Part shown: in pieces, positions 16,428-38,968 of the stretch
How positions within the stretch are numbered: the stretch's first letter is position 1
How the letters are laid out: each line of letters opens with the position of its first letter
DNA from: Strongyloides papillosus
Taxonomy: Eukaryota; Nematoda; Chromadorea; Rhabditida; Strongyloididae
DNA: 64,000 nt
Assembly (NCBI GenBank): GCA_005656395.1
Contig: SRSI01000053.1
Span: forward strand, 1 to 64,000
Direction: 5' to 3'
Notes under the pieces: generated by a model
The model's input: the letters and a program-made list of their open reading frames with translations, nothing else
Told to the model about the DNA's origin: nothing
The model's database searches: none
Translations under genes and position numbers: made by a program

Positions 16428-17329
16428 TAATTTAAAATTTAAAAAAAACATTTATTGTTTCTTTTGTTTACTTAATATCGATAACTTTTTTTTTGATTAT
16501 TAGAAAGCAAATTTGTTTATTTTATTATAGGGAAGATGTAAAAAAAAAATAAAATTTCCTTATTAAAAAAATGTTGAACTATGAATTAAAAATACAAAAT
16601 AAGTAATTAAAAATATTACTAGAATTTTTTAATAGATTAAAATTATTTTACAAATTATATTTAATAATCATTTGAAAAAGCTTTGATGATTCACAGCTTG
16701 ACTTAGTACAAGGTTAAAGTCGTATTATTTTCTCCTACGTTGTTTACTTTGCATTTATTATATAAATACAAAGCTAATTTTTCATATGGACCACTTATTT
16801 TATCAATATTCTGCTATATTTGTACAAATAATAACTTTTTTTAAATACTGATTACTTTTATCAATAGTATTTTTTGGCAAAACAAAGAATATATTCTTAT
16901 ATACTTTCGTGCGTTGAATTCGAATACGATCGTTAAAATATATTAAAGTAACAAAAATTAATGTATTTGAATTGGCTACTTAAAGCATCACATATATAAA
17001 TTATTCCAGAAAGCAATAAAAATAAAAAAATTCTAATGTTAAGATATTTCTCATTAAAAAGTTTTTTATAATTTAATTTAATATTCATAGGAAATTATAA
17101 AAATTATGTATACCAGCTTTTATTTTAAAGAAAAATACAAAACGTTATAATTTCTAAGATAAGATTTACTAAAACTTATAACAATATTTTACAGTTTCGT
17201 AAATCATGAGAACATTTCAAACAGTATGATTTTTAATAAATTTAGATTACACTTTAAAAAAAATATGAGTAAATTAGAACATTTATTAAAAAAAGAATTA
17301 TAAAGTATTTAATTAATAAAGACAAAAAG

Positions 17330-17448
17330 ACTTACGCCACTAACAGTTCCCAGGAGGTCTCCCATCCAAGTACTAAGATAGCTCGCAACTGATTCACTTC
17401 GGAGATCGGACGGGATCCGGTGCACTCAGTAGGATATGAGCGTAAGAC
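17330..17448 (-). rRNA. 5S rRNA (left arm)
   Basis: A 119-nt 5S rRNA gene with complementary ends (GTCTTACG...CGTAAGT) and the conserved internal blocks ATCCCGTCCGATCTCCGAAG, TTAGTACTTGGATGGGAGAC and CTCCTGGGAA, which include the Pol III internal control region. A T run follows the 3' end. Identical to the right-arm copy at 35,919-36,037. It diverges from the SL RNA gene at 17,745, about 300 bp away. Confidence 0.95.
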
Positions 17449-17677
17449 ACTTAAATTGTTCTTTTACATGATTATTAACATATATATTTTATGATAAACT
17501 CTAGATCAAATAGGCTAATATATAAGAAAAATTTTATTATTATGATAAATAAATTTTTTAAACTTTAATAACTAAAAACTTATAATATTTATTTATATAA
17601 CAGTTATTTTTTTTGGAATTTTCTTTTAATACATTGACCTTATAATGTTATTATACATATACATTTATTCTCTATCA

Positions 17678-17712
17678 AAGTGACATAAACTTTATAAGTG
17701 AATGAAACGAAA
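17678..17712 (+). promoter_or_regulatory. Putative PSE-like block upstream of SL RNA (left arm)
   Basis: The block aagtgacataaactttataagtgaatgaaac-type sequence spans about -67 to -33 from the SL RNA 5' end. Close variants sit at the same distance from all SL and SL-like sequences in the window (19,885-19,930, 33,465-33,500, 35,655-35,689 and 41,112-41,150), while the surrounding DNA differs. Position and conservation match the proximal sequence element of nematode snRNA/SL genes; the assignment is inference. Confidence 0.65.
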
Positions 17713-17744
17713 TAGATGTAGGTTGGTATTTCTATAATATCGTT

Positions 17745-17838
17745 GGTTAAAAAACCCAGTTGAGGTAAAATTGAATTCTGAGTTTAATCCTTCAGTGTTC
17801 CAAATTTTGGGATGAAGCTAGAAATAGCTTCCAATTTT
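17745..17838 (+). ncRNA. Spliced-leader RNA (left arm)
   Basis: A spliced-leader donor RNA for trans-splicing. The 5' leader is GGTTAAAAAACCCAGTTGAG (20 nt), directly followed by a GTAAAA donor (17,765). An Sm-type site, CAAATTTTGGG, lies at 17,801-17,811, followed by a perfect 7-bp hairpin GAAGCTA..TAGCTTC at 17,815-17,832. The order of leader, donor, Sm site and hairpin is that of nematode SL RNAs, as is the divergent linkage to 5S rRNA. The leader is one or two bases shorter than the usual 22 nt. The 3' end is approximate. Confidence 0.85.
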
Positions 17839-18367
17839 AACTACCGAAATTTTGAATTTTTTTAGTTTCTTTTTGATATTGTTTATAATTCCTGTTTTTG
17901 GCATTTTTAAGTTTATAAATAATCGTAAAAATTATGTGTAAATTGCCTATTCATTCAAAACACCAATTTTTCAACTTGAATATTCTAAATAAAATATTAT
18001 GTAATTCAAACAAAAATTCGTAATATTTTTTCTATAATGTACAATTTTACAAGACTTTTAAAAGATATGCAGCTAATTAAATGTATCTATGTACATCTTT
18101 TCTGCCAAATTGTTAGGATATGTGTTTAATGAAAATAGAAATGGAATTTTTTGATCTAATCTTTATTTACATTTCTTAATATTTGAAGAACATTTACTAC
18201 TTTTTAAGTGATTTAACAATAAATAAGCTTACAAAAAAAAAACAAACAAATAATTTATTGTTCTTTAAATTAAAACATAATTACTATATATTAATTGAGT
18301 TGTTAAATTTAAAAAAAAAATTAGACCACGTGTATGAACGGAAAAATTGGTATTTCCAGGGGTACGC

Positions 18368-18439
18368 GCGTTTATGGTGTAATGGTCAGCATGGCCGCCT
18401 TCCAAGCGGCCGATTCGGGTTCGATTCCCGATAAACGCA
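18368..18439 (+). tRNA. tRNA-Gly(TCC), left arm
   Basis: A complete cloverleaf of 72 nt: acceptor GCGTTTA/TAAACGC, anticodon stem GCCGC/GCGGC with loop CTTCCAA (anticodon TCC), and T arm CGGGTTCGATTCCCG. Discriminator is A. No intron. It has a perfect twin at 34,928-34,999 in the other arm. Confidence 0.95.
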
Positions 18440-19373
18440 TCTACAAACTTTTTCACAAATACAATCGATGTATTTTGTTCGTTAAAATATATTTTTTTAA
18501 TTTTTTCCACTTTTATCAAGTCGTTCTTATGCAAGTTTTCTGTATATAAATATGTTATTTTATAAAGTAGTTAATTTTCTTAACCTCTATGATAATTTTA
18601 TGAGAAAATATATACAAAATTAACTTTTATAGAAACTTCAATTTATCTCCTGACATCTCTGTCAATATAGTCTTTTGTTTCAGGTTTTTTAAGTGTGAAA
18701 TAATTAGTAATCAAATTGTTATAGTATATAAATAAATTACTATCAATAAATTGTTTATTACCGAATTAATAAATGTGCGATTAATAGTCATCCAAAAAAA
18801 CACCTTTTTTTCTAAGAAAGTTTATTTAGGACAATTTTTAATTTTAAAAAAATGAACAAACTATACAAAGTTCTTAATAATAAAAAATCTTATTAATGAC
18901 AAAACTTGTTCAAATTAACTTAATGTAATTTTCTCATTTTGAAATATTCTGCTTTCACAAAACAACAGTAGTCGTAATTGAGAACTTTCTATTAGAATGA
19001 AGTTTGGCAATATCTTTCTTATTTTTATTAAAAATTTTCATTTTCTAGTGATTAATAAAAAAAGTTAATTTATTCACATTTTAACTTCATATAAACTTTT
19101 CTAGTAGGAATTTGTAGTGAATTTGATACTTTTTCATAACAGTAAAATGAAAGGAATTAATTGAAAGAGTGTGTAATATATCTCAATTCTTATTGCCAAT
19201 TCAATGATGTATAAATCCAAGTTTCTTGTGAAAACAGATTTATTATTATCGGAACAAGAAGATTTAAAAGGTTTTTTAATTAAATCTGTTATAAAATGGC
19301 AAACACAAAATCAAAATGTCATTTGCGGTTGACAAGCAAATTTTAAAAAATTGCAGATAAAAAAGCAATTAAA

Positions 19374-19398
19374 TCCAGTTTGATTACCGATAAACGCA
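19374..19398 (+). pseudogene. tRNA-Gly 3'-end remnant (left arm)
   Basis: The stretch ccagtttgattaccgataaa plus cgc resembles the T arm and 3' acceptor strand of the tRNA-Gly 1 kb upstream. The following ~130 bp also loosely resemble the DNA downstream of that gene. It is a truncated duplicate, mirrored at 33,970-33,992. Confidence 0.55.
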
Positions 19399-19789
19399 TC
19401 TATAATCTTATTATTAGATTAATTATGTACTTTATTGGTACATTGAAACTTATCGTTTTTCATGATTATAAAGTCGTTTGCGTACGAATGTTTTAATATT
19501 TACAGATATTTATTGACAATAATTATTATTTTTACTTCTTAAACGCTTATGTACTGAAATGTTTGAAAAAAATGCAAAAAAGCCCGAAAATGCGTGCTTG
19601 AAAATTTCCCAGGTGGTTTCTGGTATCTCTGGTAGTATAGTGGTGAGTATCCGCGCCTGTCACGTGCGAGAGGGTACACGTCAATCTTTCAAAAATTTTT
19701 GCCAAAAAACGCAATCTAGACGATTGTGTGATTTTTGACAAAAAATGCAATCTAGGATTTTATATAATAGTAATATACATACATAATAT

Positions 19790-19861
19790 ATACTACCATT
19801 ATACAAAATACCAAATTGCCCCAGCCTCAGTAACTAAAACCGAAACTGGGTTTTATAAACC
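19790..19861 (-). ncRNA. SL-RNA-like sequence within the tRNA-Asp element (left arm)
   Basis: On the minus strand this begins GGTTTATAAAACCCAGTTTC, continues GGTTTTAG, and has an Sm-like GGCAATTTGG near 19,811-19,820. The usual AG|GT donor is missing. The region below it forms a different A+T hairpin. The same upstream block as the real SL genes lies at 19,885-19,930. Either a decayed SL gene carried by the element or a promoter capture; function is unsupported. Confidence 0.6.
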
Positions 19862-20244
19862 AACGACATAATAAAAGTACCTACCCCACACCTATTTCAT
19901 TTCATTCACTTATAATTTTTATGTCACTTTAAATAAAATGAAAATGATTTAATAATGATTAATATATACATTTTTTCAATAAAATATAAAGTGATAAATT
20001 GTATAACTTATGAAAATATACTTTATTTTGATCATATTTGGTATAAGGAAAATTTTTTAAACACAAATTGTATTTAACAATAATAATTGTATTAGTGTTA
20101 CATATTTTTATTTAATATGAGTATTCTATTTTTCCAATGTACAAACATATTCAGTACATATATTAACAAAGAAATCGCTCTTAGAATTTTATAACCTTAA
20201 AATTGGTGTTTCAGTCTTAAAAAGTATATATTTCACAAGGATAA

Positions 20245-20690
20245 TAATTTTGTTATCATTATTACGATGTAGTAAAAAATCCGTACTTCAAATTGGTAAA
20301 ATCTAAAGTAAATATACTTGATATTTATATTTTATTAATAACTATCTTGCAAAATATCAAAAAATATCTTTTAGATTTATGACATTACTTTTGTTAACAT
20401 TATTTATGATGCAGTAAAAATCTTATATTTTCAGAATAGTAAAAATTTAGATTAATTTTGTTGTAATGTTTAAATTGAATAATAATCACCTTACAAAGTA
20501 AAAAATTGTTTTTATTTTAAATTAATACCATATTTTCTAGTTTAAAATAATTTTGCTAACGTTATTCATGACATAGTAAAAATCTATACTTCAGATTTGT
20601 AAAATCTAAAGTAATTATGTTTAGCAATTGAATTTTATTAACAATTTGCTTAATAATTAACAAAAATTTACTTACTTCTTAATTATTAAT
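20245..20690 (+). repeat. Degenerate ~150-bp tandem repeats inside the element
   Basis: Three related blocks begin near 20,250, 20,390 and 20,555. Each has a version of ttttgttaacattatttatg then atgcagtaaaaatct and, in two of them, aaaatctaaagta. A mirrored set lies in the right-arm element. Confidence 0.55.
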
Positions 20691-21839
20691 GAATACATAG
20701 ATTACCAACATAACATAAAATTTTTTTTATATTCCAAATGTTACTATATGAATTTAATTTACCAATAAAACAACAATAATATAAGTAATACATTAAGTCA
20801 TCAGAAAAATATTAAAAATTACATGTTTTCTTTGTTTATAATAGAAGAAATTTACATTAATCTTATATTTTATAACCATAATCCTGACACGAAATATGGT
20901 AAAAAATCACTGTGTGATTTTTGGCAAAAAACGCATTGTAAGATTGACGTGCTACCCGTGCGAGACCGGGGTTCGATTCCCCGCCAGAGAGTTTCTTTTC
21001 TATTTTGAACTCCTAAAAAAAGTTTGGGACATTTTAAACTTCAATTTTCCAACTTTTTTTTTGTACAAATTATGGTAAAAAATATCACTTATTTAATATT
21101 TTAGCAATATTTTTCGCACTTTTTAACGATATTTTACATCTTTTCTACTTAAAAATATTAAAATATATAGTATATGATTCAAAAAATACCAAAAAATATT
21201 ATGTACATTCATGGTAAAATTTTAGTTTTTATTATAGAAGATAACATTTAAGATTATTCTTTTATCATTATTCTTAATAATATTCCTATAAAAAACATTT
21301 AGAGCATGTTAAAATTATCTTCAATCATAAAATGTACCATATATTCAATATTTACAATCACATGTTTCAGATGTCCACCTTCAGTATCTTTATATATAAT
21401 CGTACTCTTCTCATTTAATGGATTATTCACATGTCACTTTTAAATCTATTAAATTTATCTTAATATTGTCATAAAATCAAATTCTTAATGACAATCCATT
21501 TAAATTTCATAATAATTGTTATCAAAATTTATTAAAATTCTTTTCAGTAATTTCATTATTTTAAAAAGTATGAGCAAAAAGATAATTTGTTGAAACCACA
21601 TTAATTTTCATTTAACAATTATTATACAAATATAACTTTTAATGATATTTCATAAACTTCTAAGACCAAAAACAACTGCTCACAACAAAAAGAATACTGA
21701 TCTTTGTAAATGTAGTAAATTAGTTCTTCAAATAAAATTTAACTTTTTTTTATTTGCGACTAATTTTATCGTAATTAATTAGCAAATAAAATTTAAAAGA
21801 TAATTAAAAAAATTATAAAAATAAGGTCCTATTTATCTC

Positions 21840-22690
21840 TGATTTTGTTTTCAACTTTTAACTTATGTTGTCTGTACAAAAAAATTTCAAAATACAAGAT
21901 TAGAGTTAAATTTTTTTATGAAATTACTTTCATGAAGTTCATTTTTTAACAAATAAACGTATTTTTGTTAATATTTTTAATAGTTTGAATTATAAGAAGT
22001 TATAATTACTTATGAAATTGCACTGTTTGTATTGTCTTTCAGGATAATCTTTAAAATAAAGTTATAAAACACTTTGCGATTTCGTTCATAGCAAAATATA
22101 ACTTTTAAATATTTTGACTTAAAAAAAATGTAAATACTAAAGTAACACTTTTTTAATTAACAATACTCCGTGTGGTTAAAAAAATTATTCCTTTCATTAT
22201 TATTACTATGGAATTTCTCAAATTATCATTGACAATGGGTTGTTTTAAAAAATGATTTTTGTTAAAAACGTTAACAACTTTATATGAAATTGACTTCTGA
22301 TAACGTACTTCATAAAATATTATTACAAGAACTTAGACTCCATTACGAGCAAAATATCATATAAAATATTAAGATTACATAAAAGTTAAAGTACTTCAAA
22401 AATGTCAAAAAATATATACTTTTGGAAAAAACACGGGAAAAATTATGCTCCAACTTCATATTTACTTCTTTTACAATATTCTTGTTGTTGTTTAATATTT
22501 TATTGCATTTTATGAAAAATTGTCAAAATGTGTCTCTTTTTTTCGCAAATGCTTTAAATAACAACTTTCTATTAAAAACCACATGAAATATAATTTTTTA
22601 GATTTTATTAAAATATCATTATTTGTTGCATTTTAAATATGATAAAATAAATTTTCTTATCTTCATTTTTCATGATCAAAGCATATTTTT
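21840..22690 (+). repeat. Upstream region of the peptide gene; diverged direct copy at 23,790-24,680
   Basis: This stretch precedes the CS-alpha-beta gene at 22,857. A diverged same-strand copy follows about 1.95 kb downstream: aatacaagattaga-type sequence occurs at 21,892 and 23,852, and aaaatatcatataaaa at 22,353 and 24,282. Confidence 0.6.
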
Positions 22691-22856
22691 AAATATTTTA
22701 TGTAAAAAAGCCGAAAAAACATTTAATTCAATATTATATAATTATTACATATTTATTATACAATTCTTTAAAGCTTTTTTCTCATTGTATATTCAATTTT
22801 AATAATATATAAGAAACCTTAAATATCTAAAATTACAACATTTGCTTTCTTAAGAA

Positions 22857-23078
22857 ATGAAGACTATTTATCTTATTTTGACTTTTGCTATTCTTTATAT
22901 CAACGCTGCTAAACAAAGAGTATTAGAACCTTTTTATATACAAATACAAGGTTATTGTGATAAAGACATATGTGTAAATGAATGTTACGGTGATAGTTAC
23001 GCACAATGCGTGGAGAATTGGACTTTTCTACTTATTTTTAAAAATGGTTTATGTAAATGTTATCCTCACCCAGATTAG
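22857..23078 (+). CDS. Six-cysteine CS-alpha-beta-like secreted peptide (left)
   Basis: A 73-residue precursor with signal peptide MKTIYLILTFAILYINA. The mature part has six cysteines spaced C-x4-C-x3-C-x7-C-x14-C-x-C, containing the CxxxC and CxC elements of the cysteine-stabilised alpha/beta fold shared by defensin-like and toxin-like peptides. Whether it is antimicrobial, a toxin or a signal cannot be told. The right-arm counterpart at 30,283 has an identical signal peptide over 17 residues but a strongly different mature part. A third member lies at 25,823. Start chosen because it opens the signal peptide and follows an A+T promoter conserved between arms. Confidence 0.8.
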   Translation: MKTIYLILTFAILYINAAKQRVLEPFYIQIQGYCDKDICVNECYGDSYAQCVENWTFLLIFKNGLCKCYPHPD

Positions 23079-23580
23079 GATTAAACTAACATTTTTTTAC
23101 TGTGATTACATTGTTTTGTGGGCAGTAAGAAAGATAATTTTTAAAAATTTTTTATCACTGATACTATATGAATAACTTCACAAAAACCTGAAAATAAAAT
23201 GGAATCTAAAACATTGGGCGTTGCAACAATATCATGAAAAATGCTTATGTATTATATATTTGTTCTTTTATAATATTTTAATGTGTATTTGCTCAATTGT
23301 ATCATATTCATTTTGTCATTAAATACTTTATATTTATATAACTTAATTATTATTATTAATTTAAAAAAAGATCGACTATTACGTAAGATTCATAATTTAT
23401 GGAATTTTAAAAGAGATATTTACAATCAATTAATTAACTCATATTCTTCATACAAAAATTTTACTTGGTCATATTTTAAAAAATTAAATCTTATTCGTAA
23501 AATCGGACATTCACTTTCTTTATAAGTTAATCACGATTTAAATAAATATTACTACTCATAGAAACTATATCTAACATAGT
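22909..23580 (+). repeat. Inner diverged zone of the inverted repeat, left
   Basis: Continues the inverted symmetry with 29,780-30,456 at lower identity. The 3' flank of the peptide gene (gtgattacattgttttgtgg and atgaaaaatgctta) is still easily aligned, whereas the mature-peptide codons are not. Confidence 0.75.
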
Positions 23581-25822
23581 TAAAAAATTTTACTATTTAT
23601 ATTAAGTATAAAAAATATTTATTAAAAATTGCATATATATAATATAGATATGATAATAACATTATGTACACACAAAAAAGAGGACAAAGGTTTGCTTAGA
23701 ATGTTATAAATTTATCCCACCTAATAAAATTTGAATTGCCTTGATTTATAAAAATAAAAGCAACAATTAATTAAAAGTTTATATTTTTCTATAATTTATT
23801 GTCAACTTAAATCTTATGTTGTTTTACACAATACATTTTAAGATACAAGATTAGAAGATATTTTTATGTATAATTTTAAACACATTCAAAAAAAGCATTT
23901 CTAACATATTACAGTAAATTTTTCAAACATGTTTCAATAGTTTGAAGGATAATAAAATATATTTTCCTTATGAAATTATACACTACTGATCGCCACAATT
24001 ATTTTCTAATGATTTTCAAGATTATCTATAAAAATTAAGTTAATGAAAGTTGTAATACATTATGTATTTTTGTTCGTAGTAAAAAATAACAGTTAAATAT
24101 TTTAATTTAGAAAAAAAGCAAATACTAAAATAACATTTTTAATTGGTGATAATTTTCGTAGTCAAATATTTATTCATTTTCATTATTATTGTTAGGAAAT
24201 TTTTTAACTTTGCATTAAATTGACTTTTAATAACGCAATTCATAAAATATTATAAAAAAGATCAGACTCTAATACGACCAAAATATCATATAAAACATCA
24301 AGATTAAATAAACTTTGTATTACTTCAAAGTGTAGAAAAAATAAATATATTTTCATAAAAACGGTAAAATTTGTAGGATATTATAATATTTTGCGTTCTT
24401 GAAACATTTAAGTTGTTGAAATTTTTAAAATTTGAATAAAATCTTATTTTTTTAAATAGGTTGGACATTTTATTGCATTTTATGAAAATTGACAAAATTT
24501 GTTTGTTTTTTGTGTTTACAATATTACATAAATAGTTTTGTGCATCTAATAAATGAATTCTTAATTTTTGTGGACTTACTTGAAAATTATCTTCTATTTT
24601 ATTGACTATTATATATTTAAAAATTGAATGATAATAAAATAGAACTTTTTATTGTACAGTAAAACGTTTAAAAAATTTAATTCATTTTTAAATTGTGATA
24701 TTTTAGCAATTCTTTTGACTTAGAAAGGACTCAAATCAATAGAAATTAAATCGTCCATCTTATTATATATAAAACTATTTTTTTAAATTATATATGAAAA
24801 AGACTATAAAATGATCTAAAATATTATTTGAAACAAATAATTTTATATTGTAGAAATAATTTCAAATAATGGTTAATGATTATTTTATCAGTAATAATTT
24901 TTTATTTATTTATGGTTTTCATTATAATCAAATTAATAACATAACTTTTTTTTTAAAAAAATATCTATTCTTTTTTACTTCTATGCACTATTTAAATCAT
25001 TAAACTTCATCTAATCTACGAAAAAGTTTACACCTTCATTCATTCGAAACATGATCGCGACCCTCCATTTGTTTTTATCTTTATCAAATGACTTAGATAC
25101 TCCAATTGTATGTTGTTTTATCAGTATAATTCACACTCAGTTTGATCACAATACTTTCTAAAAAGGTAATAAAGATGGATAGGATTAAATCCAATTTCAC
25201 TTAGGATAGCAAGAAAAAAAAGTAGTGTAAATGATTTTCATTTTTCAAAAAACAATGAAAATGGCTCTGAAACATTTCTAACGTTTTTGTGTATTCTAGA
25301 AATTGACTATGTAATAAGGAAAATAGCGTTTAAAATTATATAAAAACATAAAAAATAGTTATTATGACTTCAAATCTCCGTTCTTTTTTAACATAAAATA
25401 CTAAAAAATGTTTTTGACTAAGGAAGAATAAAATTACAAAATTGTTTTAAACAAAAATTGTATTAAACAAATAAATCTGTGGTCGAAAAAATTATAAGTC
25501 ATTTGATAGAGCCTAATAATAGATAAAAAATAAAAAGACAATTGATAAAAGTTGGTTATTTCTTTTAACATTGTTTTCATTCATAATAATTTTGATATGT
25601 CATATTATTATATTCTTAATTCGGTACAATATTATAAAAATGATTTATATTTGAAAAAAATAACTACATGAAAAATAATATATCAAAAAATAAATATTTT
25701 TTAATTTTAAAGATATTTTCATATAGTAGCAAACAGTGCTTTTAAAAGCTACAATTTTCTTTTTTATATTTCTGCAATTAATTTTAAATAGATTTAGTAA
25801 ACTTTTTGAAACAATGAAGGGT
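23581..25822. other. Core of the inverted repeat, left part
   Basis: Unique A+T-rich DNA. It includes the diverged direct repeat at 23,790-24,680 but no peptide gene at the place expected after that copy. Nothing else recognised. Confidence 0.4.
23790..24680 (+). repeat. Diverged direct copy of 21,840-22,690
   Basis: Same-strand similarity to the region upstream of the peptide gene at 22,857, with many substitutions and small gaps. The downstream coding part is absent, so this is the promoter half of a lost or never-complete gene duplicate. Confidence 0.55.
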
Positions 25823-26095
25823 TCAAATGCCTCCAGGTATTTGTGTCGAAGGATTGAAAAGTTCTTCTAAAGTAACCTTTTTACATAGACATTCAAGCTT
25901 TCTAGTTCTAGGATTGTCTTTTATTATATAATGGTTACAAATACCGAGCTTTAATTCTTTCATACATTTACCTTCACATTTTAATCGATCACATCTACCA
26001 ACTATAGTAACGCCTTCAAATACAACAGAGTTTGATCCATATGAGCCACAAGCGATAAAGAAACTAAGGAAAAAGATAATATAAATAGTTTTCAT
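25823..26095 (-). CDS. Six-cysteine CS-alpha-beta-like secreted peptide (core)
   Basis: A 90-residue precursor with an N-terminal hydrophobic signal (MKTIYIIFFLSFFIACGSYG) sharing MKTIY with the other two genes. The cysteine spacing C-x4-C-x3-C-x8-C-...-C-x-C is that of the arm copies, with a longer fourth loop and an extra C-terminal tail ending IPGGI. An additional Cys lies in the signal region. It is in the same orientation as the right copy. The mature sequence otherwise shares little with its relatives, indicating an older, fast-diverging family member. Function unknown. Confidence 0.72.
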   Translation of the reverse strand: MKTIYIIFFLSFFIACGSYGSNSVVFEGVTIVGRCDRLKCEGKCMKELKLGICNHYIIKDNPRTRKLECLCKKVTLEELFNPSTQIPGGI

Positions 26096-27054
26096 TTCTT
26101 TAAAATAAATGTTAATAAATTTAAGACGTTTATATAAATTTTATATAGTCATTAAAAATTAATATATAATTATAAAACATAATTAAAAATTGTATAATGG
26201 CGTGATAATATGAATGATTTTGATTTTTAGATTATGAATCTAATTTTATTTAAAAAAATATTTATAAAATTGTTTTGACTATTAATGATTTAATATATAA
26301 ATCATATTCGTTTAAATTCATAATAAAAATAAAGAATAATTATTAAATTCTTATTGTATAACAGCTAAAATTTTAAAATAATAAAATTTTATTCTATTTT
26401 GAATGACACCGAATGAACTAGCCTTTCTTTAAAAAAATATTGAAATTATTACAGAAAACACAACAATTTATCACAAAAGCAAAATAGTTGAAATTTTTAA
26501 CGTAATTCATATAACAGTAATTGAATATTCTGTCGGTAATAATGCATACATAAGATTATTAATTTTTATGATTACATTTCAGTATAATAATAAAACATTT
26601 TGAAACAAAATTTCATTCGATTTCTCTTTTTCATCCAATATTGTGTCCATGTATCACTTATTTTTTTCTATCTGCAAGATTTTAACAAAACATTCCCTGA
26701 AGACAATAAAAAATTCATTAATTTAAGAGTGCTATTAAATTCAAATACTAAAACCATGATATCACATTATAAAATAATAATTTAATAAATAAATTATCCT
26801 ATTTTATTAATTTTGATTAAATAATATTGGTGAAAAAAATATTAACATATTCAGTACCATTGAATTCCTATTTACATAAAAGGGATCCACGTAATATTAC
26901 AAAAGTAGTTCATTTTTTTTAAGAATGTAAGTAACAAAATTGAGTGATATAACTAATTTATTTAACAATTTATCGTTTATTTTCTATTCACATGACATTC
27001 TTAACTAAGTTTAATTACTTTGAATAAAAATAATAAAGAATTTTTTTTATTTCC
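26096..27054. other. Core of the inverted repeat, middle
   Basis: Contains the geometric centre of symmetry near 26,683, but no local palindrome is visible there. Nothing recognised. Confidence 0.4.
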
Positions 27055-27056
27055 TA

Positions 27057-28517
27057 CACTCAAAATTTTTTACCAACAAATTCAGTATGTAACGTTACAT
27101 ATTTTTGTAATAAAATTGGTAAAAATTACTTCAGTATGTTATTTACATACTGATGTCTTAAATTTCAAAAAAGTATGTAATATAGTTTTTACGTGAAAAA
27201 CACATATTAATATGTGTTTTTTTTTACTGTGATAATTTTACATACTAAATATGTGTTATAAATTTTTAAAATAAACACATATTTTTTCTTAATTAACTTT
27301 AATGTTTTAAGTCTAATTATCATAAATATTATTCATATTAATGTGCAAATCTAATTTTATTTTTGTAAAACTACAAACAATACAAAATAATTATTATGAA
27401 ATAAAAAAAGAAACATAAAGCTACAAATTAAAAACAAAACTACATTAACAGAAAACAAACAAAAATTGACTGGACACAAACTTCTTCAAGAATTTCTTAT
27501 TCTTAACTAGTGAAATTGAATCTGAAAGAAAAAGTAATATGAAGAAATAGAGCAAAACCTATCTTTTCCAAAAGATTGAATCTGAAGAGATGATTCCTAA
27601 GCTTATTATTGACAAATCTACACCTGAAAAAATATCGTTATATAAGAAAAAATATAATAAAACCTATCTTATTATCAGTTTGAATAGTGAAGATGCTCCT
27701 TGTTAATATAATTTATGAATTCAAATCTGAAAAATTTAGTTATTTAAGAACAAAAAGGTAAAACTTATCTCATTATCAAGTTAAATTGTAGTATATGTAA
27801 AAAAATCTGAAATATAAACATGGTTAATATATAATAAAAACTACTAAATCAGCATACCAATCACAAAATTTCTACTGGAAAAAGACAATACAATAAAAGG
27901 TAAATGATTACAATATAGTATTATGTCAGGGAAAAATATGTTATTTAATAACATAGGTAGACATAATGAAACAAAAACAACTATAAGAAGAATGATTGTA
28001 TTAAGACTATTTGGTAAAAAGATATACATTTTTAAATAACTTAAAGTATACATGTATTTATCATACTTCTAACAAGAGTCACTTAGTTTTTTGCTTGGAA
28101 ATGATACTTTTTACAACAAAGAACAATCATAGACATACTTCGTAATAAAAAAACATACTACACAATACAATATAAAAAGCACGGTATAAAGAAATCCTTT
28201 ACATTAGTTTAAAAATACTAATTACTGTTATAATAAATTTATAAATAAAAATTCTAAGCATTATACTATAAAATGGAAAACGATAATGAGACCTCCATGC
28301 ATGTATTTTTTATTCAACATCAAATTAGAAAGAGAGGTATTTGATCAAGAATTGAGGTAGAGTATATTTTTCTATAAAACATAATATGTATAGAAGTATG
28401 TAAATTACAGCAAAGTTCTAAAAAAAACATACTTGATATGTTAATTTATCTACCAGTATGTATATTACATACAAAATAAAATGTACATACGAAATATGTC
28501 AGCAAAAATCTTGAGTG
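27057..28517. mobile_element. TIR element with GTATGTAA-rich ends, in the core
   Basis: TA on both sides (27,055-27,056 and 28,518-28,519). Termini begin CACTCAAAATTTTT and, reverse-complemented, CACTCAAGATTTTT. The outer ~150-250 bp at both ends are packed with gtatgtaa/ttacatac words, several forming short palindromes such as cagtatgttatttacatact. 1,461 bp. No transposase frame. Probably a non-autonomous Tc1/mariner-like element. Confidence 0.7.
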
Positions 28518-28519
28518 TA

Positions 28520-29779
28520 TAAATCATGCCTATTTTTTTAAATAATACAATGTTGATCAATATATAAAATTTACAGTACCTTTTTATTTCATTTTACAAA
28601 AGTGTTTTTACCGGTAATATTTTTACCAAATTCATATTGAATTTAAAAAATATTGCAATTTTCTAACAAAAGTGAGTGCTTCTAATATTTAAATGATAAT
28701 TTTTTCTAAATATTAAAATTATATTTTTTGTGATTTTATGTTTAATATTTCAAACTTCTATAAGGTATATTAGATTAAATTAAGACAACGAATAATTTGT
28801 AATAAATTTAGTCAATTCATTATTTTTTATACACTATTTCTTGACACGTATAAAGGACAAAATTAATTTAATACTTTTAATAAATTTGCTAAAATTGTAT
28901 TGTCATTTCTCTATAATAAAAAGAAATAAGAAAAAATTTTGTCTTTACTATAACTCTTTTCAATTTTAAACAATTTTTATAAGTAAGTAGTTAAAAATAT
29001 GTTTTTTTTCTAACTTGAGGGGGAAAATGGGTCAAAAATGTTTTGAACGATAATTGATCGAGTTATTTTTAAAACCACCGTTTTTTTTGCCTGTTTTTCA
29101 TAGATTTGATCATGTAATAATGTTTTTTTTAAATAAATAGGATACGATGGTTTATATAAATCATTTGAAAGGTCAAATGCCAGAAAAGTACGAAAACACT
29201 AAATCTAAGATATTACTTATAAACCGACCAAGTTATTGACCAAAAAATAATAATAATGTTGGAAAAGAAAATTAAAAGTTAAATGGCTATAAATTAGTCA
29301 CAACTTGATGGAAACAAATAAAAAAAACCTGGTATATAGATCTAAAATCTTACCTAAAAAATAAAAGTCTGATGAAGTTTATAACTTAACTACGAAAGAA
29401 GTTATGTTAATTTGAATGACAACATTCTCGCTTTTATTCATTTTTTTTGTAAAAATCAATTTTGTTCCAGATATAATTTTTTTCAAACTTAATCAATTTT
29501 TATGATTAAATAGTCATTTTGTGTATTTTTTTTTCTAACAAAGAGGGAAAAAAGGTTTTTGAATGTTTTCGGCCTAAAGGGACTTTATTATGTTCAAAAA
29601 AACTGCTTTTTTGATAACTTATTTGAGTTTTGTCTTTAGAATAATTTTTGTAAAATTGAAATTTTTTGTTTTATAATTTATTTGAATAGTAAAAATTAGG
29701 AATAATAGAAAAATTTAATAAATTACTTTTTATTTTTTATACTTATTATAAATAATAAAATTATTAAACTATGTTAGAT
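28520..29779. other. Core of the inverted repeat, right part
   Basis: No gene. Positions 28,890-29,260 weakly match 12,060-12,400 in the same orientation (a dispersed repeat). Confidence 0.35.
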
Positions 29780-30456
29780 TTGGTTTCTATGAGTAGTAAT
29801 ATTTATTAAAATTGTGATAAACTCATAAAGAAAGTAAATGTCCGATTTTACGAATAAATAAGATTTCATTCTTTAAAATATGACAAAGTAAAGTTTTTTA
29901 TACCTACTTTTGCATGAAAAATATAATTTAATTGATTGATCGTAAAAAGTATTTTTAAAATTCCATAAATTATAAATCGTGCAAAATAGCCTATGTTTTT
30001 TTTTAAATTAACAATAATAATTAAGTTTTATAAATATAAAGTATTTAATGATAAAATGGTATAATAAAATTGAGAAAATACAAATTCATATAGTAAGAAA
30101 GAACAATTATATAATATATAAGCATTTTTCATGATATTATTGAAATTCTCAATGTTTTAAAATCCATTTTATTTTCAGGTATTTCTGAAGTTATTCATAT
30201 AGTATCACTGGTCAAAGTTTTCTAAAAAATATCTTTCTTCCTTTCCACAAAACAATGTAATCACAATGAAAAAATGCTAATTTTACCAATGATTTGGGGG
30301 AGAATAACATTCACATATACCTTTTTTAATAAATAACCATTCTCTCGTATTCGATATGCATTCTGCGGTCGGATCATCAAGACATTGAGTAACGCATATT
30401 TCTTTATCACAAAAATAATCTAATTCTTTTCTACGATACTTAAATGGTTCTTCAAC
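29780..30456 (-). repeat. Inner diverged zone of the inverted repeat, right
   Basis: Partner of 22,909-23,580. For example, aagaaagtaaatgtccgatt at 29,829 matches the complement near 23,500-23,520. Identity is clearly lower than in the arm proper. Confidence 0.75.
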
Positions 30457-30507
30457 AGCGTTGATATAAAGAATAGCAAAAGTCAAAATAAGATAAATAG
30501 TCTTCAT
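30283..30507 (-). CDS. Six-cysteine CS-alpha-beta-like secreted peptide (right)
   Basis: A 74-residue precursor. The signal peptide MKTIYLILTFAILYINA is identical to the left copy at protein and DNA level; the mature part keeps the six cysteines (C-x4-C-x3-C-x7-C-x14-C-x-C) but only about two fifths of the residues match. The 3' flank is better conserved than the mature codons, suggesting either diversifying selection or replacement of the 3' half by recombination. The signal peptide and six-cysteine pattern imply a secreted disulfide-rich peptide; role unknown. Confidence 0.8.
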   Translation of the reverse strand: MKTIYLILTFAILYINAVEEPFKYRRKELDYFCDKEICVTQCLDDPTAECISNTREWLFIKKGICECYSPPNHW

Positions 30508-32432
30508 TTCTTAAGAAAGCAAATGTTGTAATTTTAGATATTTAAGGTTTCTTATATATTATTAAAATTGAATATACAATGAGAAAAAAGCTTTAAAGAA
30601 TTGTATAATAAATATGTAATAATTATATAATATTGAATTAAATGTTTTTTCGGCTTTTTTACATAAAATATTTAAAAATATGCTTTGATCATGAAAAATG
30701 AAGATAAGAAAATTTATTTTATCATATTTAAAATGCAACAAATAATGATATTTTAATAAAATCTAAAAAATTATATTTCATGTGGTTTTTAATAGAAAAT
30801 TGTTATTTAAAGCATTTTCAAAAAAATGAGACACATTTTGACAATTTTTCATAAAATGCAATAAAATATTAAACAACAATAAGAATATTGTAAAAGAAGT
30901 AAATATGAAGTTGGAGCATAATTTTTCCCGTATTTTTTCCAAAAGTATATATTTTTTGACATTTTTGAAGTACTTTAACTTTTATGTAATCTTAATATTT
31001 TATATGATATTTTGCTCGTAATAAAGTCTAAGTTCTTGTAATAATATTTTATGAAGTACGTTATCAGAAGTCAATTTCATATAAAGTTGTTAACGTTTTT
31101 AACAAAAATCATTCTTTAAAACAACCCATTGTCAATAATAATTTGAGAAATTCCATAGTAATAATAATGAAAGGAATAATTTTTTTTAACCACACGGAGT
31201 ATTGTTAATTAAAAAAAATGTTACTTTAGTATTTACATTTTTTTAAGTCAAAATATTTAAAAGTTATATTTTAGCAATGAACGAAATCGCAAAGTGTTTT
31301 ATAACTTTATTTTAAAGATTATCCTGAAAGACAATACAAACAGTGCAATTTCATAAGTAATTATAACTTCTTATAATTCAAACTATTAAAAATATTAACA
31401 AAAATACGTTTATTTGTTAAAAAATGAACTTCATGAAAGTAATTTCATAAAAAAATTTAACTCTAATCTTGTATTTTGAAATTTTTTTGTACAGACAACA
31501 TAAGTTAAAAGTTGAAAACAAAATCAGAGATAAATAGGACCTTATTTTTATAATTTTTTTAATTATCTTTTAAATTTTATTTGCTAATTAATTACGATAA
31601 AATTAGTCGCAAATAAAAAAAAGTTAAATTTTATTTGAAGAACTAATTTACTACATTTACAAAGATCAGTATTCTTTTTGTTGTGAGCAGTTGTTTTTGG
31701 TCTTAGAAGTTTATGAAATATCATTAAAAGTTATATTTGTATAATAATTGTTAAATGAAAATTAATGTGGTTTCAACAAATTATCTTTTTGCTCATACTT
31801 TTTAAAATAATGAAATTACTGAAAAGAATTTTAATAAATTTTGATAACAATTATTATGAAATTTAAATGGATTGTCATTAAGAATTTGATTTTATGACAA
31901 TATTAAGATAAATTTAATAGATTTAAAAGTGACATGTGAATAATCCATTAAATGAGAAGAGTACGATTATATATAAAGATACTGAAGGTGGACATCTGAA
32001 ACATGTGATTGTAAATATTGAATATATGGTACATTTTATGATTGAAGATAATTTTAACATGCTCTAAATGTTTTTTATAGGAATATTATTAAGAATAATG
32101 ATAAAAGAATAATCTTAAATGTTATCTTCTATAATAAAAACTAAAATTTTACCATGAATGTACATAATATTTTTTGGTATTTTTTGAATCATATACTATA
32201 TATTTTAATATTTTTAAGTAGAAAAGATGTAAAATATCGTTAAAAAGTGCGAAAAATATTGCTAAAATATTAAATAAGTGATATTTTTTACCATAATTTG
32301 TACAAAAAAAAAGTTGGAAAATTGAAGTTTAAAATGTCCCAAACTTTTTTTAGGAGTTCAAAATAGAAAAGAAACTCTCTGGCGGGGAATCGAACCCCGG
32401 TCTCGCACGTGACAGGCGCGGATACTCACCAC

Positions 32433-33718
32433 GGTAGCACGTCAATCTTACAATGCGTTTTTTGCCAAAAATCACACAGTGATTTTTTACCATATTTCGT
32501 GTCAGGATTATGGTTATAAAATATAAGATTAATGTAAATTTCTTCTATTATAAACAAAGAAAACATGTAATTTTTAGTATTTTTTTGATGATTTAATGTA
32601 TTACTTATGTTATTGTTGTTTTATTGGTAAATTAAATTCATATAGTAACATTTAGAATATAAAAAAAATTTTATGTTATGTTGGTAATCTATGTATTCAT
32701 TAATAATTAAGATGTAAGTAAATTTTTGTTAATTATTAAGCAAATTGTTAATAAAATTCAATTGCTAAACATAATTACTTTAGATTTTACAAATCTGAAG
32801 TATAGATTTTTACTATGTCATGAATAACGTTAGCAAAATTATTTTAAACTAGAAAATATGGTATTAATTTAAAATAAAAACAATTTTTTACTTTGTAAGG
32901 TGATTATTATTCAATTTAAACATTACAACAAAATTAATCTAAATTTTTACTATTCTGAAAATATAAGATTTTTACTGCATCATAAATAATGTTAACAAAA
33001 GTAATGTCATAAATCTAAAAGATATTTTTTGATATTTTGCAAGATAGTTATTAATAAAATATAAATATCAAGTATATTTACTTTAGATTTTACCAATTTG
33101 AAGTACGGATTTTTTTACTACATCGTAATAATGATAACAAAATTATTATCCTTGTGAAATATATACTTTTTAAGACTGAAACACCAATTTTAAGGTTATA
33201 AAATTCTAAGAGCGATTTCTTTGTTAATATATGTACTGGATATGTTTGTACATTGGAAAAATAGAATACTCATATTAAATAAAAATATGTAACACTAATA
33301 CAATTATTATTGTTAAATACAATTTGTGTTTAAAAAATTTTCCTTATACCAAATATGATCAAAATAAAGTATATTTTCATAAGTTATACAATTTATCACT
33401 TTATATTTTATTGAAAAAATGTATATATTAATCATTATTAGATCATTTTCATTTTATTTAAAGTGACATAAAAATTATAAGTGAATGAAATGAAATAGGT
33501 GTGGGGTAGGTACTTTTACTATGTCGTTGGTTTATAAAACCCAGTTTCAGTTTTAGTTACTGAGGCTGGGGCAATTTGGTATTTTGTATAATGGTAGTAT
33601 ATATTATGTATATATATTACTATTATATAAAATCCTAGATTGCATTTTTTGTCAAAAATCACACAATCGTCTAGATTGCGTTTTTTGACAAAAATTTTTG
33701 AAAGATTGACGTGTACCC
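32433..33718 (-). mobile_element. 1,286-bp TIR element inside tRNA-Asp (right arm)
   Basis: Same element and same relative orientation to the tRNA as in the left arm. Ends read GGTAGCACGTCAATCTT on the plus strand at 32,433 and GGGTACACGTCAATCTT on the minus strand at 33,718. Flanked by actcaccac at 32,424-32,432 and 33,719-33,727. Interior nearly identical to the left copy, including SL-like unit and tandem repeats. Non-coding. Confidence 0.88.
33529..33600 (+). ncRNA. SL-RNA-like sequence within the tRNA-Asp element (right arm)
   Basis: Begins GGTTTATAAAACCCAGTTTC then AGTTTTAG, with Sm-like GGCAATTTGG near 33,571. Lacks a GT donor after the leader. Differs from the left-arm copy by CAG versus CGG at the leader end. 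PSE-like block at about 33,465-33,500. Confidence 0.6.
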
Positions 33719-33969
33719 ACTCACCACTATACTACCAGAGATACCAGAAACCACCTGGGAAATTTTCAAGCACGCATTTTCGGGCTTTTTTGCATTTTTT
33801 TCAAACATTTCAGTACATAAGCGTTTAAGAAGTAAAAATAATAATTATTGTCAATAAATATCTGTAAATATTAAAACATTCGTACGCAAACGACTTTATA
33901 ATCATGAAAAACGATAAGTTTCAATGTACCAATAAAGTACATAATTAATCTAATAATAAGATTATAGAT

Positions 33970-33992
33970 GCGTTTATCGGTAATCAAACTGG
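33970..33992 (-). pseudogene. tRNA-Gly 3'-end remnant (right arm)
   Basis: Mirror of 19,374-19,398: T arm and acceptor 3' strand of a tRNA-Gly-like gene, truncated. Confidence 0.55.
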
Positions 33993-34927
33993 ATTTAATT
34001 GCTTTTTTATCTGCAATTTTTTAAAATTTGCTTGTCAACCGCAAATGACATTTTGATTTTGTGTTTGCCATTTTATAACAGATTTAATTAAAAAACCTTT
34101 TAAATCTTCTTGTTCCGATAATAATAAATCTGTTTTCACAAGAAACTTGGATTTATACATCATTGAATTGGCAATAAGAATTGAGATATATTACACACTC
34201 TTTCAATTAATTCCTTTCATTTTACTGTTATGAAAAAGTATCAAATTCACTACAAATTCCTACTAGAAAAGTTTATATGAAGTTAAAATGTGAATAAATT
34301 AACTTTTTTTATTAATCACTAGAAAATGAAAATTTTTAATAAAAATAAGAAAGATATTGCCAAACTTCATTCTAATAGAAAGTTCTCAATTACGACTACT
34401 GTTGTTTTGTGAAAGCAGAATATTTCAAAATGAGAAAATTACATTAAGTTAATTTGAACAAGTTTTGTCATTAATAAGATTTTTTATTATTAAGAACTTT
34501 GTATAGTTTGTTCATTTTTTTAAAATTAAAAATTGTCCTAAATAAACTTTCTTAGAAAAAAAGGTGTTTTTTTGGATGACTATTAATCGCACATTTATTA
34601 ATTCGGTAATAAACAATTTATTGATAGTAATTTATTTATATACTATAACAATTTGATTACTAATTATTTCACACTTAAAAAACCTGAAACAAAAGACTAT
34701 ATTGACAGAGATGTCAGGAGATAAATTGAAGTTTCTATAAAAGTTAATTTTGTATATATTTTCTCATAAAATTATCATAGAGGTTAAGAAAATTAACTAC
34801 TTTATAAAATAACATATTTATATACAGAAAACTTGCATAAGAACGACTTGATAAAAGTGGAAAAAATTAAAAAAATATATTTTAACGAACAAAATACATC
34901 GATTGTATTTGTGAAAAAGTTTGTAGA

Positions 34928-34999
34928 TGCGTTTATCGGGAATCGAACCCGAATCGGCCGCTTGGAAGGCGGCCATGCTGACCATTACACCATAAACGC
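34928..34999 (-). tRNA. tRNA-Gly(TCC), right arm
   Basis: Perfect twin of 18,368-18,439, with complete 72-nt cloverleaf and anticodon TCC. Confidence 0.95.
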
Positions 35000-35528
35000 G
35001 CGTACCCCTGGAAATACCAATTTTTCCGTTCATACACGTGGTCTAATTTTTTTTTTAAATTTAACAACTCAATTAATATATAGTAATTATGTTTTAATTT
35101 AAAGAACAATAAATTATTTGTTTGTTTTTTTTTTGTAAGCTTATTTATTGTTAAATCACTTAAAAAGTAGTAAATGTTCTTCAAATATTAAGAAATGTAA
35201 ATAAAGATTAGATCAAAAAATTCCATTTCTATTTTCATTAAACACATATCCTAACAATTTGGCAGAAAAGATGTACATAGATACATTTAATTAGCTGCAT
35301 ATCTTTTAAAAGTCTTGTAAAATTGTACATTATAGAAAAAATATTACGAATTTTTGTTTGAATTACATAATATTTTATTTAGAATATTCAAGTTGAAAAA
35401 TTGGTGTTTTGAATGAATAGGCAATTTACACATAATTTTTACGATTATTTATAAACTTAAAAATGCCAAAAACAGGAATTATAAACAATATCAAAAAGAA
35501 ACTAAAAAAATTCAAAATTTCGGTAGTT

Positions 35529-35622
35529 AAAATTGGAAGCTATTTCTAGCTTCATCCCAAAATTTGGAACACTGAAGGATTAAACTCAGAATTCAATTTT
35601 ACCTCAACTGGGTTTTTTAACC
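35529..35622 (-). ncRNA. Spliced-leader RNA (right arm)
   Basis: Same as the left-arm SL RNA: leader GGTTAAAAAACCCAGTTGAG, GTAAAA donor, Sm-type CAAATTTTGGG and terminal hairpin GAAGCTA..TAGCTTC. PSE-like block at 35,655-35,689. Divergent from the 5S gene at 35,919. Confidence 0.85.
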
Positions 35623-35918
35623 AACGATATTATAGAAATACCAACCTACATCTATTTCGTTTCATTCACTTATAAAGTTTATGTCACTTTGATAGAGAAT
35701 AAATGTATATGTATAATAACATTATAAGGTCAATGTATTAAAAGAAAATTCCAAAAAAAATAACTGTTATATAAATAAATATTATAAGTTTTTAGTTATT
35801 AAAGTTTAAAAAATTTATTTATCATAATAATAAAATTTTTCTTATATATTAGCCTATTTGATCTAGAGTTTATCATAAAATATATATGTTAATAATCATG
35901 TAAAAGAACAATTTAAGT

Positions 35919-36037
35919 GTCTTACGCTCATATCCTACTGAGTGCACCGGATCCCGTCCGATCTCCGAAGTGAATCAGTTGCGAGCTATCTTAGTACTTG
36001 GATGGGAGACCTCCTGGGAACTGTTAGTGGCGTAAGT
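35919..36037 (+). rRNA. 5S rRNA (right arm)
   Basis: 119-nt 5S rRNA, identical to the left-arm copy, with intact internal control region and a 3' T run (cttttt). Confidence 0.95.
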
Positions 36038-36939
36038 CTTTTTGTCTTTATTAATTAAATACTTTATAATTCTTTTTTTAATAAATGTTCTAATTTACTC
36101 ATATTTTTTTTAAAGTGTAATCTAAATTTATTAAAAATCATACTGTTTGAAATGTTCTCATGATTTACGAAACTGTAAAATATTGTTATAAGTTTTAGTA
36201 AATCTTATCTTAGAAATTATAACGTTTTGTATTTTTCTTTAAAATAAAAGCTGGTATACATAATTTTTATAATTTCCTATGAATATTAAATTAAATTATA
36301 AAAAACTTTTTAATGAGAAATATCTTAACATTAGAATTTTTTTATTTTTATTGCTTTCTGGAATAATTTATATATGTGATGCTTTAAGTAGCCAATTCAA
36401 ATACATTAATTTTTGTTACTTTAATATATTTTAACGATCGTATTCGAATTCAACGCACGAAAGTATATAAGAATATATTCTTTGTTTTGCCAAAAAATAC
36501 TATTGATAAAAGTAATCAGTATTTAAAAAAAGTTATTATTTGTACAAATATAGCAGAATATTGATAAAATAAGTGGTCCATATGAAAAATTAGCTTTGTA
36601 TTTATATAATAAATGCAAAGTAAACAACGTAGGAGAAAATAATACGACTTTAACCTTGTACTAAGTCAAGCTGTGAATCATCAAAGCTTTTTCAAATGAT
36701 TATTAAATATAATTTGTAAAATAATTTTAATCTATTAAAAAATTCTAGTAATATTTTTAATTACTTATTTTGTATTTTTAATTCATAGTTCAACATTTTT
36801 TTAATAAGGAAATTTTATTTTTTTTTTACATCTTCCCTATAATAAAATAAACAAATTTGCTTTCTAATAATCAAAAAAAAAGTTATCGATATTAAGTAAA
36901 CAAAAGAAACAATAAATGTTTTTTTTAAATTTTAAATTA

Positions 36940-37840: not shown

Positions 37841-38170
37841 TAAGAGACCAGCTGAATATTTTATGTTGCGATATTATATTTTTAATTGCCTTTGAATAAT
37901 AAATAATAAAAGAACTTTTCATATATAATCATTTTTTATTTATTTATAAAATAATTTGGATTATCATAAAAATTCATAAATTTTGCTTTAATTTAACATA
38001 ATTTTCAGTACCACTAAGAAACGTGTTCATTTTCCATATCAAATTATATGAATTTAATTATCATAAAAAATTTCATTCATTAGTATTCGCATTTATAATG
38101 ATCTAAAAATTATATAAATTAGGGAAATTTTCCATTGATATCATACTTTCAAAGTTTTCAAAAACTTAAA

Positions 38171-38844: not shown

Positions 38845-38968
38845 ACTACGCATTTATTATTTAGTGTATAATATTAAATAATAATAAGAACATGAAAAAA
38901 AAGTAAAAAGAGGTGACACTGAACCATTAAATTTAGTTCAAAATGATTAACCTATCTTAAAAAATAAT
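38845..38968 (+). pseudogene. Fragment of a second Thr-rich gene copy, cut by mariner (right arm)
   Basis: Similar to 37,000-37,095: gacactgaaccattaaattt then agttcaaaatgatt, against gatactgaattatcaaattt then agttgaaaatgatt in the longer copy. Ends at the mariner terminus at 38,970. Contains an in-frame TAA. Confidence 0.55.

Follow-up and report, generated by a model that had tools for sequence, protein, structure and literature searches.

Terminal-inverted-repeat elements inserted within RNA polymerase III genes of Strongyloides papillosus

Two interrupted tRNA-Asp genes in one palindrome

The stretch of DNA analyzed here (the window) comprises the first 64,000 nucleotides of contig SRSI01000053.1 of Strongyloides papillosus (G000:C67:1-64000; contig C67 is 68,338 bp in length, and the genome is 58.2 Mb in 79 contigs). 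The window contains a large palindrome; each of its arms has a 72-nt tRNA-Asp gene that is interrupted by one copy of a ~1,285-bp element (family A, described below), the subject of this work. When the element and one copy of the 9-bp target duplication are deleted, the identical 72-nt string is obtained from the left and right arms, and ARAGORN identifies the restored gene as tRNA-Asp(GTC) in both. In each arm the element is on the same strand as the tRNA; the insertion points differ between the arms, as do the 9-bp duplications (CGTGCGAGA on the left and GTGGTGAGT on the right). The first-pass annotation of the window had described a tRNA-Asp gene split by the same element in both arms, at two positions with two different duplications and with the same restored tRNA; this description holds in both arms, with coordinates and letters that are correct to the base (Table 1).

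The longest ungapped pair of arm sequences spans 5,684 bp and is 100% complementary after rounding. In a global alignment of the arms, 14001-15500 contains 5 substitutions and 1 gap column; both 15501-19500 and 21001-22000 are free of differences. The left-arm element has at least 49 matches in the genome, with pieces counted (of 122 candidates, 40 were scored). The fetched element loci contain no whole copy of this tRNA-Asp gene. Four full-length 5S rRNA matches and two whole tRNA-Gly(TCC) genes are also located in or beside the arms.

Table 1. Coordinates of features in the window (two dots separate first and last positions; family A is one of the element families described in the text).
Feature	Position	Strand	Remarks
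Left-arm tRNA-Asp(GTC), 5' part, nt 1-46	19626..19671	+	ARAGORN on restored gene; coordinates checked
Left 9-bp target duplication CGTGCGAGA, copy 1, tRNA nt 38-46	19663..19671	+	
Left transposon copy, family A, 1285 bp	19672..20956	+	Ends GGGTACACGTCAATCTT ... AAGATTGACGTGCTACC; genome matches; terminal inverted repeats
Left-arm tRNA-Asp, 3' part, nt 38-72	20957..20991	+	Duplication copy 2 is 20957-20965
Right-arm tRNA-Asp(GTC), 5' part, nt 1-23	33719..33741	-	Duplication GTGGTGAGT, copy 1 is 33719-33727 (nt 15-23)
Right transposon copy, family A, 1286 bp	32433..33718	-	Identical to the C3:2518862-2520147 copy in a tRNA-Thr gene
Right-arm tRNA-Asp, 3' part, nt 15-72	32375..32432	-	Duplication copy 2 is 32424-32432
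Spliced-leader-like exon block GGTTTATAAAACCCAGTTT, left copy	19843..19861	-	
Spliced-leader-like exon block, right copy	33529..33547	+	
Conserved stretch upstream of the spliced-leader block	19862..19929	-	Alignable with the upstream region of L073; putatively promoter-like; approximate limits, set by hand
Left palindrome arm, outer part	13965..19648	.	Nearly identical to inverted 33719-39402
Right palindrome arm, outer part	33719..39402	.	Counterpart of 13965-19648
5S rRNA match, full length	17329-17447	-	
5S rRNA match, full length	35920-36038	+	
5S rRNA match, full length	40750-40868	+	
5S rRNA match, full length	41487-41602	+	Weak
tRNA-Gly(TCC) gene, whole	18368-18439		
tRNA-Gly(TCC) gene, whole	34928-34999		

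Origin of the two insertions

Two histories had been offered for this arrangement, that is, two separate hits on the same gene or excision followed by local re-insertion. A comparison of 17 full-length copies of family A upholds the first and speaks against the second. The right-arm element is identical to C3_2520147, located in a tRNA-Thr gene (0 of 1286 positions differ); the left-arm element differs by 2 substitutions from C1_1762016 (in a tRNA-Phe gene) and by 3 from C1_1782896 (in a 7SL RNA gene); and between the two arm elements there are 12 substitutions and 1 indel, in contrast to the identical arm DNA on their flanks. Because the nearest kin of each copy lie elsewhere while the flanking arms are identical, the copies are most likely separate, recent arrivals from different sub-lineages; judged from these sequences, both local hopping and shared descent are strongly disfavored. 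One ancestral insertion in tRNA-Asp that was later shifted by 23 nt in one arm would account for the same family, strand, and gene in both arms; however, this history is scarcely credible given the 12 substitutions and 1 indel beside identical arm DNA and the kinship of the right copy with the tRNA-Thr copy on C3 and of the left copy with copies on C1.

The palindrome could instead be the product of assembly, that is, two haplotypes joined head to head, so that the insertions are alleles and not arm paralogues. The contig is short and the arms are identical across kilobases, which favors such a join; nonetheless, we regard it as rather doubtful, since it leaves the two insertion points and the genome-wide pattern (vide infra) unexplained. 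The copies would become alleles, yet two independent insertions would remain. Fold-back within a single read could not yield two positions with two duplications. The double hit on tRNA-Asp is probably owed to a small and strongly preferred set of targets (on the order of 400 genes), with nothing special about the palindrome.

Genome-wide distribution of the element

The element belongs to a group of at least four related families with the same targeting habit (A, ~1285 bp; A', ~1146 bp; B, ~965 bp; and C, ~710 bp) that have imperfect ~20-bp terminal inverted repeats (TIRs) in common (GGGTNCACGT...ACGTGNNACC, with small variations); an older 2.2-kb type (D) also has such ends. The terminal 20 bp give 13-18 ungapped matches of 20 in 50 of 50 elements, with gapped alignment for four.

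We searched the whole genome with the end patterns, ignoring the flanks and allowing up to 3 mismatches in the 3' ends. This search identifies 65 3' ends, all 65 of which were re-located in the fetched DNA, and 63 5' ends; the control patterns identify none of either. For pairing, a 5' end that repeats the first 9 bases of the 3' flank was favored, and otherwise the nearest 5' end was chosen; with this rule, 51 of the 65 3' ends have a partner and 14 do not. A 9-bp duplication with at most one mismatch flanks 39 of the 51 pairs (36 exact and 3 with one mismatch).

When introns are allowed, ARAGORN recovers a tRNA gene at 35 of these 39 duplication-flanked copies. The restored genes represent 16 amino-acid types: Asp (5), Thr and Ile (4 each), Ser and Trp (3 each), Asn, Arg, Met, Pro, and Gly (2 each), and Phe, Val, Lys, Tyr, Cys, and Ala (1 each). 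By family, a tRNA is restored at 16 of 18 copies of A, 4 of 4 of A', 6 of 6 of B, 9 of 10 of C, and 0 of 1 of D; family A alone is found in genes for Phe, Asp, Thr, Ser, Trp, Ile, Arg, Pro, and Asn as well as in 7SL, at differing nucleotides. For 10 of 34 restored tRNAs, an exact whole copy is present in the fetched loci (for Cys, its own copy is counted).

The copy in the 7SL gene, C1_1782896 of family A, is inside the RNA gene of the signal recognition particle (SRP; RF00017, 145.6 bits), so that 36 of the 39 duplication-flanked copies are in genes transcribed by RNA polymerase III (Pol III). By hand count, its duplication is located at about nt 17-25, the stretch most often hit in the tRNAs. 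The target class is wider than tRNA and includes 7SL. The 7SL/SRP RNA gene at L003:2782-3084 is split by a family A copy close to its 5' end.

A first look at the genome gives 3,467 tRNA candidates (63 scored), and a B-box pattern gives 655 matches compared with 238 for the reversed control; the excess of 417, a count that takes in interrupted genes and misses odd ones, suggests as a rough figure that the genome has on the order of 400 tRNA genes or pieces. The share of the genome occupied by tRNA genes is about 0.06-0.45%. With all 3,467 candidates taken as genes, 0.17 of 39 insertions would be expected in tRNA genes by chance (P for at least 35 of 39 < 1e-77). The first-pass annotation had suggested that the element targets tRNA genes within the transcribed region, to be checked by a genome-wide count of duplication-flanked copies in Pol III genes; that count, 36 of 39 (35 in tRNA genes and the 36th in 7SL) where fewer than 1 is expected, agrees with the suggestion.

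The flanks of all 65 3' ends were also compared with a small tRNA library from which the restored gene of the end itself was left out, except for a typed tRNA-Tyr entry or where a whole tRNA adjoins the element. A tRNA piece is found at the junction in 46 of 65 ends (the match for C8_2209703 is weak, E 0.004) and at 10 of 400 random positions in the same loci. ARAGORN adds C14_87243 and C14_1091613, and cmscan adds C10_1627292 (34.7 bits); with the 7SL copy, a Pol III flank is supported by tools for 50 of the 65 ends.

Such a distribution might also arise by survivor bias, that is, by wide insertion followed by persistence only in redundant tRNA genes, and tRNA genes are multi-copy (the 417 excess B-box matches). 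However, neutral insertions in the abundant AT-rich non-coding DNA should last at least equally well, yet 36 of 39 duplication-flanked copies are in Pol III genes, and recent, nearly identical copies follow the same pattern; we therefore consider survivor bias very improbable.

Position of the insertions within their targets

In the 34 genes that were called without full intron handling, the duplications are spread over nt 0-57, with the case at nt 57 located in the intron of a tRNA-Ile(TAT) gene. The 33 corrected centers have a median of 19 when the element is on the opposite strand (n = 22) and 27 when it is on the same strand (n = 11), and 0 of 33 are beyond nt 47 (p = 1.2e-6 under a uniform distribution). 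The T arm, with the B box, is untouched in all 35 tRNA cases; the insertions are centered on the A box and D arm. In the Cys case, the duplication covers nt 0-8, at the very beginning of the gene, and one side of the element retains a whole tRNA. Neither the strand bias (22 of 34, p = 0.12) nor the link between strand and position (p = 0.08) is significant.

The information at 32 distinct sites is 3.67 bits in 33 columns, compared with 2.54 bits at random positions in the same tRNAs (p = 0.002); the strongest preference is for a pyrimidine at position 9 of the duplication. Judged from these aligned sites, 3.67 bits is far too little for finding about 400 genes in 58 Mb.

Proposed mode of targeting

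The element is apparently a recently active, non-autonomous TIR DNA transposon. In the mechanism that we propose, a transposase supplied in trans would insert it with a 9-bp stagger inside Pol III genes that have internal promoters, near the A box; the enzyme would find its target via the Pol III machinery (TFIIIC on the A box and B box, or an assembly bound to the A box), with no single target sequence. The Pol III machinery is suggested as the guide because isotype, strand, and exact position vary and because a gene that is not a tRNA gene, 7SL, is hit at the matching place. The enzyme may be of the Mutator-like (MULE) type, because the duplication is 9 bp and the genome has many MULE domains; a Merlin-type transposase is a possible alternative (Merlin elements presumably make 8-9-bp duplications). 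We regard this explanation as a whole, that is, a non-autonomous TIR transposon that is inserted near the A box with a 9-bp duplication by a MULE-type transposase that acts in trans and is guided by the Pol III machinery, as probable.

Alternatively, the transposase may recognize the conserved DNA of the A-box/D-arm region, with variation tolerated, and not Pol III proteins. Many of the duplications overlap the conserved D-arm (GTTGGTTAG and alike), the preference is weak but beyond chance, and the 7SL site is likewise near the A-box region, all of which would be expected if the enzyme reads sequence. However, the duplications extend over nt 0-47 and into the tRNA-Ile(TAT) intron and occur on both strands, the sites in the anticodon arm have little in common, the total information is only 3.67 bits in 33 columns, and recognition of a fixed site, such as that proposed for Dada elements, would yield one position. 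We judge recognition of sequence unlikely, while giving it appreciable weight. Guidance by the Pol III machinery can be approached experimentally: many isotypes together with 7SL, hit in the same promoter region with little preference for sequence, make a role of Pol III factors as the guide of a DDE transposase testable.

Several observations weigh against guidance by the Pol III machinery and a MULE-type enzyme. First, the local sequence preference is real, though weak (p = 0.002). Second, no transposase is found in the copies read, as judged from the open frames of the long copies, the end patterns, and the MULE and Merlin domains; C10:1577266-1580107 and C3:2483716-2496116 were read only in part, and this negative result leaves aside the unread partnerless 5' ends at C3:1648996, C5:2044337, C8:2038897, and C71:49331. 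The genome has 25 matches to the MULE domain PF10551 (22 above the cut-off) and 11 to PF12762 (Merlin, IS1595-type; 7 with internal stop codons), and comparison of coordinates by hand places none of the 25 and none of the 11 between matched element ends.

Third, 3 of the 39 duplication-flanked copies (C3_103017, C17_13617, and C8_2084444) are in no identified Pol III gene. The targets of C3_103017 and C17_13617 may represent a repeat derived from a tRNA or a novel Pol III gene; their A/B-box scores, 13 and 14, respectively, are not exceptional (79 and 19, respectively, of 600 random 160-mers score at least as high). These two targets (L051 and L019, respectively) have blocks in common (GCTTCTGnAGTTTAGTT...GAGTTCT).

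Fourth, 12 of the 51 end pairs have no duplication of that length. Three of these copies are located between two different half tRNAs (C42_172649, Gly/Val, L065; C57_69942, Gly/Thr, L066; and C5_865915, Glu/Tyr, L020); five have a tRNA at the 3' side only (C5_844268, C5_1272092, C10_1594952, C14_105644, and C78_6991), which for C5_1272092 and C10_1594952 is whole or nearly whole and merely adjacent; and four have no tool-called tRNA on either side. Recombination between copies or one-sided insertion would give copies that lack a duplication, and the copies with mixed flanks perhaps reflect recombination between copies; in that event, tRNA-borne elements may rearrange chromosomes.

Finally, 15 of the 65 ends have no tool-supported Pol III flank. 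Ten are C3_103017, C17_13617, C17_51646, C8_2084444, C8_2134215, C9_1049085, C10_1577266, C10_1614581, C10_1651424, and C57_139661; the other five are marginal or degraded (C4_1354999, C19_112718, C25_354113, C33_507323, and C33_527102). For C9_1049085, cmscan gives 26.7 bits, under the cut-off of 29; by eye only, tRNA pieces adjoin C9_1049085, C10_1614581, and C57_139661.

Of the two MULE loci read, the one in L072 is bounded by different, candidate ends, and its putative 9-bp duplication is in AT-rich DNA rather than in a tRNA gene; thus, tRNA targeting cannot be deduced from a 9-bp duplication by itself. No ends were found at the L071 locus. A single open reading frame (ORF) there (L071:709-3644, minus strand), located near a tRNA-Asn gene, contains both a MULE transposase and a Ulp1-type protease domain (PF02902).

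A spliced-leader segment and the retrotransposon within it

On their minus strand, the families contain a spliced-leader (SL)-like exon block, GGTTTATAAAACCCAGTTT, usually 159-173 bp from the 5' end. The genome has 66 exact matches to this block and 7 with one mismatch (control, 0); of these 73, 54 follow an element 5' end, at a distance of 159-173 bp in 50 cases. The 9 of 63 5' ends without the block include 4 with an insertion in or near it, 1 at a contig end, and 4 that are weak end matches. The block is the most conserved 20-bp window in the first 420 bp of 46 elements (0.990 compared with a median of 0.845).

The remaining 19 of 73 matches are outside the elements; 8 of them follow one another on C24 at intervals of ~5.5 kb. 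At two of these places, L073 and L074, GGTTTATAAAACCCAGTTT starts an exon that continues as GAG/GTAATT (the slash marks the boundary) and is followed by CAAAATTTTGGAA, a layout that we take to be the exon, splice donor, and Sm-like site of a nematode SL RNA gene. The Rfam SL1 model aligns with L073 and L074 over its full length, with 24.8 and 19 bits, respectively (E 0.046 and 0.89), below the cut-off of 75; within the elements themselves, the model gives no match (E up to 5). The spacing in L073 and L074 agrees with that of the SL1 variants described for Strongyloides ratti (PMC1657053). The elements also align with L073, not with L074, upstream of the exon. We suggest from these alignments that the element carries a captured piece of an SL RNA gene, namely, a putative promoter-like region and the first 19 nt of the exon. 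Because the splice-donor side is altered in the elements, a working SL RNA is not implied.

Other elements are nested in several long copies: L015 and, judged by a matching ORF, L060 contain an R2-like retrotransposon, and L023 contains an RTE-like one (labeled by eye). The L015 ORF (L015:1362-5393, minus strand) encodes 1,343 aa with a reverse transcriptase domain (RVT_1, E 3.8e-22) and matches five solved chains: three R2 proteins, one RNA-directed DNA polymerase, and one reverse transcriptase-like protein. The R2-like retrotransposon is located in the SL block, with the repeat GGTTTTATA, at one site in families A, B, and C. Both junctions are present in L015 (family A) and in L037 (family B, with an insert of about 200 bp), and one is present in L060 (family C, same ORF start); in L052, a distinct but related retrotransposon shows one junction at this site. 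From these junctions, the retrotransposon looks like an SL-exon-targeted element that hits the SL piece inside the transposon, and we liken it to the NeSL kind.

A three-level nest on multicopy RNA genes is conceivable, that is, a DNA transposon that homes to the Pol III machinery as a class, the SL piece that it captured, and an R2-like retrotransposon specific for SL; we offer this reading tentatively, as one that stands somewhat short of even. In this reading, the transposon would parallel Ty1 and Ty3 among the retrotransposons, with the difference that it enters the gene itself, at the A box. The elements tag tRNA genes by natural insertion (about 50 supported hits compared with about 400 excess B-box matches, a rough ratio), may drive the loss and rearrangement of such genes, and offer a possible route for the spread of SL gene pieces.

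Comparison with known systems

The retrotransposons Ty1/Ty3 and the TRE/DGLT elements of Dictyostelium, which insert beside tRNA genes, resemble the elements described here in that Pol III genes are chosen as a class, with many isotypes, probably by protein contact; in contrast, the elements described here are TIR DNA elements inside the gene body. Membership in the Ty1/Ty3/TRE type is rejected: reverse transcriptase is found only in the nested insertions, and the 35 restored insertions are in the gene, that in Cys at its very start.

Mutyl of Yarrowia, a MULE, has imperfect 22-bp TIRs and a 9-bp duplication (PMC5014426). The elements are MULE-like in their 9-bp duplication and imperfect ~20-bp terminal repeats, with the 25 MULE-domain matches in the host genome; they differ in that no MULE transposase was found between these element ends, and long repeats of the plant-MULE kind are absent from the ends. 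Their provisional filing as MULEs is drawn from two structural features, with the enzyme not among the copies read. In the literature searched, no paper on the targeting of Pol III genes by MULEs stood out.

Pokey, a piggyBac element, targets the 28S rRNA gene and inserts in other places too (PMC3706591, PMC8869645). It is likewise a DNA transposon that prefers a multicopy RNA gene; its target differs in being the one 28S rRNA gene.

The closest parallel in habit is Dada; in the literature searched, we noticed no other described DNA transposons that insert in tRNA genes. In that literature, the habit is rarely described for DNA transposons and is known mainly from Dada, for which fixed-sequence recognition was proposed. 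Dada elements insert in tRNA and other small RNA genes, with tRNA sites near the A box (nt 8-13) and the anticodon; they make a 6-7-bp duplication, lack TIRs (subterminal ones occur in the U6/U1 families), measure 4.7-11 kb when complete, and are proposed to recognize primary sequence (PMC3706591, PMC8869645). A Dada lineage uses one site in one tRNA type, or in a few with common target letters (PMC8869645), and some copies have no duplication or mixed flanks (PMC3706591). Like Dada, the elements described here are DNA transposons inside tRNA and small RNA genes in the vicinity of the A box and the anticodon, with internally deleted copies and some copies without a duplication or with mixed flanks. 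No transposase of the Dada kind (DDE, DxxH) can be compared, as the copies read contain no transposase and no search with a Dada profile was made. Membership in Dada is ruled out by duplication length, terminal repeats, and target breadth: in contrast to Dada as described in these papers, the elements of S. papillosus have a 9-bp duplication and TIRs, and one family is found in many isotypes and in 7SL, at spread positions and on both strands, with a weak sequence preference.

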